Of a stretch of 64,000 bases of DNA, positions 35,979 through 40,939 are shown piece by piece. Position 1 is the first letter of the stretch, and each line of letters starts with the position of its first letter. The DNA comes from Sarcomyxa edulis (taxonomy: Eukaryota > Basidiomycota > Agaricomycetes > Agaricales > Mycenaceae): positions 124,001 through 188,000 of the forward strand of contig QUOL01000025.1 in the NCBI GenBank assembly GCA_009761415.1, written 5' to 3'. A program made the position numbers and the translations under genes. The notes below the pieces were generated by a model that was not told the DNA's origin, did no database searches, and saw nothing but the letters and a program-made list of their open reading frames with translations.

Positions 35979-38152
35979 ATGGGGGTACCTGGCTTGTGGA
36001 CGGTACGTTGTTACCAACCATTCTACATGTACGATTCTCACATTCCATCAGATACTTGCAATAGCAATGCAAGAACGGGCATTCTCTCAGTTTGCTGTGA
36101 CCGAGGGGTTTGAAAGAAATAGACACGGCTGTCGCTCACTCCGGCTTGGTGTAGATGCCAGGTATGTTCGATTCTCTTGCGCTACACCATTTTTTACTCA
36201 GGCTATTCGCACCCTCTGTAGCTTATGGTTCGTTCAATGCCAGCACGCAGTTGCTGGCTTTACGCATGCACAAAGCGGTGAAAATCCAGAATTGCGTATT
36301 ATCTTCTGGCGTCTTGCTCGGTTCCTCCAGACAACTGTAACTTTACTGTTCGTTTTTGATGGTAGAGATCGGCCGGTCAGCAAGCGGGGGAAAAAAGTCC
36401 TCAAAAAACCACACTGGCTCACGGATGCGGCGATAGAGTTGATTTCGGCATTTGGATTTCAATATTACACTGTGAGTCTCGAAAAAACATGACGTATAGC
36501 GCTGGATGAAGGCTCATTGACAGGATAGGCACCCGGAGAAGCGGAGGCTGAGCTGGCGTACCTCAATCAAACTGGGACCATTGATGCCATACTTACCGAT
36601 GACTCCGATGCATTTCTTTTTGGAGCTACTCATGTCATCCGAAAGTCAGTTTCTCAGTTTCTTTGTGTCACGTATCGGTTTTAATCTCTCTCGGAGTGCA
36701 GCCCAAGAATTAACAACGACAAAGATCTTGTTGAAATATATACAGCTCAGGCAATTCTCAACGCGGTTGGGGTCAGGCTTTCTCGTGGTAGCATGATCCT
36801 CATTGCGCTCCTGAGTGGTGGAGATTATGACACGGTGAGTCTTGATTAGGAATTGCACTATCTGCGTTCATCAACTTCCATGTCTTAGGTTGGTCTCGCC
36901 GGATGCGGGGTGCCAATTGCACTCGCATTATCACGTACTGGACTTGGCGACACTCTCCTGGATGCCGCTCTCAACTCAGTGCCCGAGGAGTTGAACGAAT
37001 TTCTTATTGGATGGCGTAATGACTTGCGCCATGAGCTCTCTACTGACAAGTCAGGGTTTCTTGGTTTCAGACGTAAAGTACTCGCAAACTCTATCCGTGA
37101 CACCTTTCCGGACCCCAGCATTATATATATGTACACCGCGCCGGTCACATCCTGGTCGCATGGACGGAGTGGCCCAAAATTCAACTTCGACACTCTTACA
37201 CCACATCAGCCAGACCTGGCACGACTAGCATCAATATGTGGGACCCGCTTTTCTTGGCGTACATCAAGTGAAATCCACGTACGATTCCAGAATAGGGTAT
37301 GGGAAGGCGCTTGCATTAAAATGCTTTGTGAGGTACGTTCTTGTTGATTTATCTCTCACTCGTACAATCTATTGATGTGCAAAAAAATGGTAGGCGAATC
37401 GGGAGAATCTAGGAGCTCTGAACCCATCTCTTGTTGCAAGAATTCGTACAGTTCGTCTCGACCCATCACCCGCACTCAACTTTAAGTCGTACCGAATTCA
37501 ATATTCACTTCAAGAGTTTGTCACTCGTACTGCCCCTGGCCTTTATCACTCCCCTACACTACCACCTGGTCCTGATTCAGATTCTTCTGCGGAAGATCCC
37601 AGACCCAAATCAAAATCGCCTGAAATACAGCATGCCGATCCAGGCTTTGCTCACATGTGGGTTCCTGCCTCAATCCTTCGGTCTGCACTTCCCGCAATGG
37701 TTGAGGGTTTCAACGACCCTATTATAGTGACTGAAACGCTCCCCCCTTCCGTAAGTTTTTCAATCACAGATTACAGTGACTAGTATGCTTATATGTTGCA
37801 GCTTCTTTCTCCGATGAATGCTGCTTCGACACAGTCCAGCAACACCTCTGGTGTCTCCAGCAATACCAACGCTATAGCAGGCCCATCCAAATGGAGTGGT
37901 CAGGTCGTTTTCAGTGCATCAAACGACAGCGTCAGCTTGCGAGACCCTAGTCTTGAAGGTAGTCCTTCCATGGGAACAGGCCTATCCCAACCCACTCGGG
38001 CCAGCGTCGGTGTAGACAGCGATTCAGATAGCAGTCTGGAAGTGTCCGGACCTTTTGATAGCAGGTCTGGCAGTGCTATGTATCCCATCGACGTTGATGC
38101 TGATTGCGAGGAGCGCCACTCGGATGGTGATGTGGTAATCTTAGGCACATAG
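35979..38152 (+). CDS. XPG/Rad2-family nuclease (GEN1/Yen1-like)
   Basis: Structure-specific nuclease of the XPG/Rad2/FEN1 superfamily, closest in layout to the Holliday-junction resolvases GEN1/Yen1. Eight exons (35979-36002, 36052-36161, 36222-36471, 36529-36644, 36702-36834, 36889-37332, 37394-37750, 37802-38152) sum to 1785 bases, or 594 residues. MGVPGLWT is the canonical N-terminus. The XPG-N region has GVDAS (Asp43) and LFVFDGRDRP (Asp91). The XPG-I region has APGEAEAELAYL (Glu132-136) and LTDDSDAF (Asp152-155). The helix-hairpin-helix start is SGGDYDTVGLAGCG (Asp208), so all catalytic acids are present. The tail (from about residue 400) is Ser/Pro-rich and acidic and ends with DGDVVILGT. 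A tyrosine recombinase follows 176 bases downstream on the same strand. It could be the host resolvase gene or an element-borne relative. Confidence 0.86.
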
Positions 38153-38328
38153 TCTGGTAGTCGAGCTTGATATCCGTTTCTTTACGTTGCTTCGCATTCC
38201 TAGTGTATTCCGTATCCTAATTGTCATCACACGTTGCATACGAGCGGAAGTAAATAAAATTTCCCTTCTCTCCCAAATCCTTTCTTCAGCTCGCTATCAG
38301 TGCTTCGGTGCTTCTGGCCCTTCACATT

Positions 38329-40627
38329 ATGGGTCCCAGTAATTCTTCGGAGTCTCTGGTCTCAAAGAAAAAGGCAACAGCTACCAGGAAGAGTTCAACC
38401 CGGGGGGCAAAACCGGTTGCCAGTTTAAGTCAGCTCCAGAAAGCCAAAGCGGCTGCAATCAAGCTTCACCGTGGATCGAAAAGAACTGATGGTGCATATA
38501 CGGGATACATCAAAAGGGCTAAAGAGTTTCTGGAAGACCTGGTGGCGGACAGAACAAGAAACGAGAATGACGACACCGATAGCTTCGAGGCGCCGCTTAT
38601 AGAAGACGTTGACCTCAAGATATTATCCAAGAGCTTTGATAACCCACCAAACAAATATTCCGCAATGGCCCTGGAGAATTTTATAGTCCAAAAGTGTTTG
38701 ACAGAAGATTGCGGAAAGAGCACGTCGGATGGAATCCATGCAGCGTTCCTCCGATATTGGGATGACATGTATGCCATAAACAACTTCGTTGTGCTGCAGA
38801 CTGCTGACCAGATCTTAGGAGCGGTGAAAAGTACAGAGGCTCATATTTCTGGGATGAAACGACAGGAAAGGTCTCGGGAAACCCGGCGAGGTGTGCGTTG
38901 ATCGTAGATTTGATGAAGACCATCAAGAACAAGTGTGGCGCAAACGGCGGAAGAAGGAACCACGCCGAGGCAATGACAAGAGAGGATTTGAAGATAATCA
39001 TGGATTGGTCTGAAACAACCTGTCCGTCCGATAAGCTAGACTCCATTGTTGACGCCAGAGAAAGGAAAGAAGCAATGAAGCACGTTATGATGCGTGCATT
39101 TCTGACCTCGGGATTCACGCTATGGACAAGGTGATTGGCCGCCACATCTCACCATCAATTCCCTTTCTGATCGCAATCACATCGTGATCACTGAGCAGAA
39201 ACTTCGAGCTCTGTTCCCTTCAAAGTCGCCATGTCACGCTAGGCTGTAAGGTTGCACCGTATTTTATAGACCACTGTGCTGTGAAATTGGAAGACCGAAA
39301 AGGATGGCAGAAGAAGCAAGGCGATGACGGGCCCCTCATGGGTAGTCACCTCCATATATCATTCAACCTTAGAGTTCAATTTCTGACTTGATACCGTGTT
39401 TCATAGGTAACACTTACGAGATCTACGAGCAAAGGAAGACACCTGAAATGGACATGTATACCCATCTCCAGGTCTGGATAAAATTTCTCGAAACCCAACT
39501 TGGCCGAAACCTCAAGCCTGATGACTACATATTCCCTTTCGTCGGAAACAACGGGGTCATCTATCCGAATAAAGAGGTTACTCACGACATCATCCAGAAG
39601 CACCTAACCGAGTTTTCAACAGCCTCGGGAGTCAGCAAGCATTATACGACACATTGCCTACGCCGTGGAGGTGCTCAGTACCGATTCATGTTTGCCCCAC
39701 TTGGTGAACGGTGGTCACTGACTATCATTCGGTGGTGGGGAGGATGGGCCATTGGAGAGCACGTATGTCCAATCCAGTGCAGCTATATATGCAAAAGTTC
39801 TTACCTCAACAATAGGTCGACACACTCATCCGTTACCTTGTTGATTCTTTGCAGAGTTACGAGAATTGTCACGGAGATGCACTGCGACCTATATCCTCGG
39901 AGATAGACCAGAGTTTCAACGGAGATCACGCTCGAGTTGGCTCTGCATCTGCAGAAGAGTTTCGCCAACTGGCAGGCTTTGTAGAGAGAAAATTAAACAT
40001 GGTAATGGATATTGTTTTGAGCTCGTCAACTTCCTCTCAAGCTGTCCAATTGGCGCAAATCACAAACATGTCACCTACAAGACCCAGACAAAGACATCAC
40101 TCCCGCCATCGCCCTCCCCGCAACTTTCCCAATCTTCGTGCAACTCAACATCACGATCAACAACAATCCTCAACTCAAGCTCCATGTCACAAAGATGCCT
40201 GTCCACAACTACCACCCACCACGGGACTGTCAATTCCGAACCTTTCAAGGGGAGCTTCGGCCTGGCGTGACGCTATCAAGCAATGGGAAGAACCCCATCC
40301 AACATCTGGACTTCCGGCGCTCAAGGATTGGCCATTGGAATGGTACACTGGACAGAACCGAACGGCGTTTGCTGTGAAGCGGGGCCAGCGACGACAGGTT
40401 GCGAACGAGTACGAACGGTGAGTTTATTTTGTAGCCTACCCACTGCACCTTGATTGATTGCTTGCAGGTGCGAACGAGACGATGTAGTCTTTCTATCAAT
40501 CTTCCCAGAAGCCAACAACGGTCTTGGAAAACTCTTGTTGGCAATCCATGCAAAACGGTCTGCTCGCGGAGAGGTGATTTTACGGACAAGTAAAAACGGT
40601 GCACCTACTGAGCGCATTCTTGTTTAA
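38329..40627 (+). CDS. Crypton-type tyrosine recombinase with GCR1_C domain
   Basis: Tyrosine recombinase (DNA breaking-rejoining enzyme), expected to cut and rejoin DNA through a phosphotyrosine bond. Six exons (38329-38768, 38819-39130, 39199-39341, 39407-39762, 39816-40417, 40468-40627) join in phase to 670 residues. The basic N-terminus (KKKATATRKSSTRG) precedes an alpha-helical core-binding domain. The catalytic signature is complete: Arg251 in TRNFELCSL, His381 and Arg384 in THCLRRGGA, Trp409 in WWGGW, and Tyr424 in TLIRYLVDSL. A Gln/Ser/His-rich linker leads to a C-terminal GCR1_C-like DNA-binding domain (about 565-650) with AWRDAIKQWEEPHP, LKDWPLEWYTG, KRGQRRQVANEYER and RDDVVFLSIFP. 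Recombinase plus GCR1_C is the hallmark of Crypton DNA transposons. There is no frame damage, so the protein may be active or domesticated. Alternative 3' splicing into 40674-40939 is possible. Confidence 0.85.
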
Positions 40628-40673
40628 TCCCTTATTTAAATACATTATTTATTTTTTCTCGTACCAAGAACAG

Positions 40674-40939
40674 ACCGTGTATTATGAGGCTATAGAGCTC
40701 ATGGACAGATATGCTCTCAAGAAGGTATGCATGTACAAAGCTATTCAGAATTGTTTAGCCCGAGGGTAGTAGGTCCGTGAGGGGGGTTCCAACCACGAAA
40801 TGTGAATAACTCACATCTGCTGACACAGGTCCTTGCTAGAAGTTTGACCGTTGGTACCATTATCTTCGTTCCAAAAGCGGAGCCTGGAGGAGTCAGAGAT
40901 GTGTTGGCCAAACTTCAGAGATATCGACAGGTCAATTGA
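40674..40939 (+). CDS. Possible alternative 3' exons of the recombinase
   Basis: Using a GT donor at 40574 instead of reading through, exon 6 (to 40573) joins in phase to 40674-40724 (TVYYEAIELMDRYALKK) and then to 40829-40939 (SLTVGTIIFVPKAEPGG..., ending RYRQVN). All three junctions are phase 0 with good GT/AG borders, which would give a 706-residue protein. The added C-terminus looks coding but matches no domain I know. Alternatively these exons belong to a separate small gene. RNA data would decide. Confidence 0.4.

Follow-up and report, generated by a model that had tools for sequence, protein, structure and literature searches.

A GEN1-like nuclease gene and a tyrosine recombinase gene recur as a two-gene unit in Sarcomyxa edulis that looks like an undescribed mobile element

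CryptonF elements are fungal DNA elements that encode a tyrosine recombinase and lack terminal inverted repeats, and some Cryptons carry a second gene, for a C48 peptidase, according to the accessible part of the report by Kojima and Jurka (2011, PMC3212892), in which no word begins with "nuclease". Starships (DUF3435), too, are mobile elements of fungi that depend on a tyrosine recombinase. A precedent for an accessory DNA-processing enzyme is provided by KDZ and other fungal transposons with TET/JBP, which differ in that they use DDD/E transposases or are Helitrons; the term "tyrosine recombinase" has 0 occurrences in the accessible part of the source (Kojima 2025, PMC12730594). The present analysis concerns a GEN1-like XPG/Rad2 nuclease gene and the tyrosine recombinase gene that follows it in a stretch of 64,000 nucleotides from Sarcomyxa edulis, termed here the window, which occupies positions 124001-188000 of contig C18 in our numbering of the 35.6-Mb assembly (40 contigs). 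The two genes form a recurring two-gene unit that looks like an undescribed mobile element. No prior description of such a pair was found in a literature search, which had most subscription journals and bioRxiv outside its scope, and the accessible parts of PMC3212892, PMC10799480, PMC3411680 and PMC12730594 do not mention one.

A search of the genome with the window nuclease revealed seven GEN1-like loci: C18 (the window), C37:1335k, C37:1033k, C9:518k, C9:122k, C12:159k and C23:1068k (C34 and C39, where the match was weaker, were left out of the count as presumed other XPG-family genes). Five recombinase loci were agreed by three queries, i.e., C18, C37:1337k, C12:162k, C9:119k and, as a partial copy, C36:1392k, the last being omitted by the first query. 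In four of these five, a GEN1-like gene is located directly upstream of the recombinase on the same strand. Absence of the adjacency elsewhere had been named in the sequence-only reading of the window as an argument against a mobile element; instead, the adjacency is present at these four loci and, as fused predictions, in two other genera (see below). The paired loci represent two lineages, window/C37 and C12/C9. The window and C37 nucleases are 54% identical over 343 columns, and the C12/C9 nucleases are 30-34% identical to that of the window. In gene models for which the window protein served as template, the first exon measures 24 bp and another exon 116 bp at all seven GEN1-like loci, element and host copies included, which would fit the capture of a genomic, intron-bearing gene. 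The GEN1-like genes at C37:1033k (hereafter C37b) and C23:1068k are long, both end in a DIIDLT tail, and have no recombinase that could be found nearby; C23 is a long-branch second copy, and the gene beside it is presumably Kae1/Qri7-like.

The nuclease gene of the window (35979..38152, plus strand) was established by spliced translation, re-derived by spliced alignment and assigned by Pfam. It is composed of eight exons (35979-36002, 36052-36161, 36222-36471, 36529-36644, 36702-36834, 36889-37332, 37394-37750 and 37802-38152), its seven introns are all of the GT-AG type, and the 594-residue product contains no internal stops; the spliced-alignment script gave the same model. The XPG_I and XPG_N families are recognized at 77.2 bits (cut-off 24.9) and 25.2 bits (cut-off 22), respectively, and GEN1_C (PF18380) scores 16.6 bits, under its cut-off of 26.7. 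The acidic motifs VDAS, FDG, GEAEA, TDDSD and GGDY are all present, in line with the earlier statement that this gene has the catalytic acids of the XPG/Rad2 family. Across 28 aligned relatives, of which 7 have a called GEN1_C and 21 do not, six of the seven acid positions never vary; the remaining one is occupied by E in 25 sequences, D in two (P0123 and P0192) and K in one (P0124). The fold of one relative, P0148, aligns with that of GEN1 (6grd) as far as residue 467, the C-terminal domain included, and is nearer to GEN1 than to FEN1, XPG or EXO1. It is these two domains, the active-site acids, the relative's fold and the exon sizes given above that liken the window nuclease to GEN1/Yen1, the host Holliday-junction resolvase. 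Unlike the latter, the window-type nuclease belongs to a separate clade, is multi-copy and has a recombinase beside it, and in the window copy GEN1_C stays below cut-off.

A 176-bp stretch (38153..38328, from the gene models, no strand assigned) separates the nuclease from the recombinase gene (38329..40627, plus strand), for which splicing, templates from relatives and alignment yielded six exons (38329-38768, 38819-39130, 39199-39341, 39407-39762, 39816-40417 and 40468-40627) and a product of 670 residues. The description of two intact multi-exon genes on the same strand, 176 bp apart, therefore holds. The recombinase had, however, been drawn as far as 40939, and both models spliced that far lost the reading frame. 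Six relatives served as templates: the alignment reaches 40615 in four of them and 40612 in a fifth, whereas in the sixth it stops at 40418. Because five of the six finish just before the stop at 40625-40627, this stop was taken as the end of the gene, which is thus 312 bp shorter than first thought. The previously described R-H-R-W-Y signature was found again as R251, H381-x-x-R384, W408/W409/W412 and Y424 (gene 2 numbering), together with K285. Among 31 aligned relatives, the first R is retained in 30 (one gap), H in 31, the second R in 30 (one H) and Y in 30 (one gap); each of the signature positions, including K and W, is conserved in 29 to 31 of them.

No Pfam family recognizes the window recombinase at its cut-off, and among the 31 relatives there is weak resemblance to Phage_integrase (11/31) and DUF3435 (18/31). 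The C terminus contains a conserved KDWPxEWY...KRxxR pattern. The GCR1_C-like domain previously placed there was not confirmed at the sequence level, with no Pfam match in the window protein (scanned minus its last 17 residues) and a single match at E 0.12 among the 31 relatives. A sequence search of the PDB by the recombinase profile gave 0 matches, and none of the 53 pattern matches in IMG/VR viral contigs and 77 in GTDB genomes was confirmed. Like CryptonF, the unit is fungal and based on a tyrosine recombinase with the R-H-R-Y active site; neither GCR1_C nor terminal direct repeats of 4-6 bp were demonstrated for the pair, and the Crypton-type label is tentative. Shared with Starships are the tyrosine recombinase and the weak DUF3435 resemblance of the relatives. 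The window recombinase itself scores 11.6 bits against DUF3435, under the cut-off of 25.8, and hence does not qualify as a Starship captain, and the duplicated C12/C9 unit measures about 9 kb. The one DUF3435 match over cut-off in the genome is located on C40, where the nuclease search gave nothing. A reverse transcriptase of the DIRS/Ngaro type was absent from the five unit proteins scanned (two from the window and three C12 pieces), the flanks not having been scanned systematically.

A nuclease tree of 128 rows (quick method, midpoint root) contains a clade of 40 rows (support 96) that stands apart from 83 GEN1_C genes. The clade includes the window nuclease, C37a (C37:1335k), C9a, the 8 listed genes that share a contig with a recombinase, the 28 remaining listed genes without GEN1_C, and the Cyclocybe fusion described below. 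C37b, in contrast, falls within the GEN1_C group. C37b is the host GEN1 orthologue, and the window nuclease is not host GEN1. The possibility that the nuclease would prove to be the single-copy host GEN1/Yen1, which had been put forward as grounds for abandoning the mobile-element proposal, is thus answered by a host orthologue elsewhere in the genome.

Protein searches yielded 298 recombinase and 390 nuclease relatives, of which the best 120 of each were used; those with genus names are presumably from Agaricomycetes or near kin. In two predicted proteins the nuclease and the recombinase are joined, namely P0107 from Cyclocybe aegerita and P0078 from Arthromyces matolae (on a 4,153-bp contig). 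Both may have arisen when neighbouring genes were fused in annotation, in which case they are still evidence of adjacency and of the same gene order. A called GEN1_C is missing in 36 of the 120 best nucleases. With contigs matched by species and length, a contig is common to the nuclease and one of the 120 best recombinases for 8 of these 36, compared to 1 of the 84 with GEN1_C (Fisher p 2.5e-4); limited to species with a listed recombinase, the proportions are 8/24 and 1/25 (p 0.011). Three nuclease rows (one without and two with GEN1_C) were unable to match by construction. The element-type clade holds eight of the nine listed nucleases that have a recombinase on the same contig.

The C12 and C9 loci, which are unlinked, have 9.0 kb in common (C12 local 1917 to 10900), with both genes inside. 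The C9 copy is broken by a 155-bp difference and by an unrelated 8.25-kb element (C9:123230-131479), which lies between its two parts, has 15-bp terminal inverted repeats (CATCAGCAAACCGGC) and is flanked by what appears to be a 2-bp duplication (AA); at C10:48k and C3:1094k, sequence of one end region of this element is found again with 73-79% identity. A left border of the shared unit at local 4293 was rejected, as it is the insertion point of this element, and the shared stretch extends to local 1917. A third reading frame (C12 local 8800-9786, minus strand) is open in both copies and has no Pfam match. In 200-bp windows the two copies are 92-100% identical in the left part (1917-4116), 76-96% in the interior and 100% in the last window; the interior may have undergone gene conversion or been exchanged. 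Only these two copies are similar enough to each other for dN/dS to be estimated; the values are 0.0069/0.227 (about 0.03) in the recombinase, 0.031/0.344 in the nuclease domain and 0.104/0.495 (about 0.2) in the third frame. The low values indicate that the nuclease and the recombinase have been constrained by purifying selection since the copies split.

On the basis of the conserved order and orientation, the unlinked copies, the separate nuclease clade, the conserved catalytic residues and the purifying selection on C12/C9, we consider it likely that the nuclease and the recombinase make up the coding core of an Agaricomycete tyrosine-recombinase mobile element that is present in few copies and has its own GEN1-type nuclease. 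In such an element, the recombinase would excise and integrate the DNA by Cre/Crypton-like strand exchange via a four-way junction; junctions that the recombinase left unfinished, e.g., between non-matching ends, would be cut by the GEN1-type nuclease, such that the reaction need not wait for host GEN1. A more extended scenario, in which a tyrosine-recombinase transposon lineage captured host GEN1, perhaps repeatedly (the main clade, C12/C9 and possibly Hygrophoropsis P0211), and became dispersed among Agaricomycetes while making and resolving its own four-way junctions, is plausible and is offered tentatively. If the proposal is correct, it would account for the presence of several "PIN domain-like" GEN1 relatives in many mushroom genomes, and it would provide a natural case, in a eukaryotic mobile element, of a recombinase combined with a junction resolvase, in which the completion of recombination at non-matching end sites becomes testable. 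Such nuclease genes should then not be annotated as host GEN1.

Several observations weigh against the mobile-element proposal. No recombinase was found beside the C9:518k nuclease, and no nuclease was found within 4.0 kb upstream or 2.5 kb downstream of the partial C36 recombinase (about 7 kb examined). There is no DNA-level copy of the window unit elsewhere in the genome. No terminal inverted repeat, clear direct repeat or target repeat was seen at the borders of the C12/C9 unit, which could be a segmental duplication, and empty sites for the two units, sought by joined flanks, were not found. Of the two-gene mobile element originally suggested, the recurring two-gene unit is supported, and movement is a proposal for which no empty site, circular form or target repeat was found. 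In the 128-row tree the C12/C9b nucleases lie on the host side, at the end of a long branch. When the tree was cut down to 51 rows, by leaving out element rows that were near-duplicates or had long branches and keeping 18 of the host rows, they joined the element clade with support 62, a value compatible with one or several GEN1 captures. The nine contigs shared by a nuclease and a recombinase span 28.6 kb to 3.3 Mb and thus denote co-location rather than adjacency. The tree distances of nucleases and recombinases are correlated (r 0.61, p 0.003 for 13 pairs; r 0.67, p 0.004 for 11 pairs, with C12 and P0211 dropped), a relationship confounded by host relatedness. In P0107 the active sites are altered in both parts (GEAKA, SEDSN and HSFH), and this copy is probably decayed.

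The function of the nuclease bears on the first of the alternatives. From its family, the fold of its relative and its conserved residues, we infer that the window nuclease may act as a junction resolvase. GEN1-type enzymes also cut 5' flaps, and the family has a flap-cutting active site, which counts against this assignment. A mobile element whose nuclease works on flaps or forks, like FEN1 or XPG, for target opening or replicative copying rather than for junction resolution, would agree with the conserved acids, with the sub-threshold GEN1_C of the window protein and with the 36 listed nucleases that have no called GEN1_C. The fold, nearer to that of GEN1 and with the C-terminal domain included, argues otherwise, and we regard such a role as rather unlikely.

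The pair may also descend from an old element and now serve host DNA repair or genome rearrangement as an immobile, domesticated module. Its low copy number, the strong selection on the C12/C9 recombinase, the lack of a DNA-level copy of the window unit and the co-location of both genes on a contig in several genera would be expected of such a module; set against them are the presence of one 9-kb unit at two unlinked loci, the decayed copies (the Cyclocybe fusion), and a tree in which long end branches are mostly on the element side and most host GEN1 branches are short, more like the turnover of mobile elements. Domestication therefore appears unlikely to us. A single window could not by itself argue against chance neighbours or a host GEN1 with a transposon inserted alongside. 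The same neighbourhood, however, recurs at four of the five recombinase loci and in fused predictions from two other genera, the host GEN1 is a different gene, and by our arithmetic the odds that a given recombinase lies within 1.5 kb downstream, on the same strand, of one of seven genes are about 1.5e-4; an accidental arrangement is thus extremely improbable.

Two short blocks upstream of the window nuclease could be cis sites of the proposed element. A 42-bp block (35547..35588, plus strand), about 430 bp upstream of the window nuclease, has a counterpart in the same orientation on C37, identical at 36 of 42 positions and located 501 bp before the nuclease start there. Its 31-base core has exactly two occurrences in the genome with up to three mismatches allowed. 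A 26-bp block (33215..33240, plus strand), a candidate outer site of the unit, has a perfect match upstream of the C37 nuclease (L043 2538-2563); the two copies are situated 2.8 kb (window) and 2.3 kb (C37) before the nuclease start, with unrelated sequence on each side. No further copies were found in the 208.6 kb scanned, a part of the genome, and no right-end copy was found with up to eight mismatches. In the pairs of units compared, the right ends had no common motifs above shuffles, and there are 0 tRNA genes around the window unit. The hexamer ACGCGT (window 35285 and 35313) occurs within 1 kb upstream in 7/7 GEN1-like loci, host genes included, compared to about 25% of random 1-kb windows, and was not used as evidence.

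Elsewhere in the window, DNA comparison showed that positions 34502..34616 (plus strand) are 91% identical to C8:170388-170501. The minus strand at 59217-61810 (53% G+C) contains two long overlapping open frames of 370 and 610 residues with no Pfam match. Further long frames of the window appear to be host genes, for an alkaline ceramidase, two F-box proteins and a class-V aminotransferase (frames 330-1046 plus, 17540-19051 minus, 21988-22845 minus and 42947-44482 plus).

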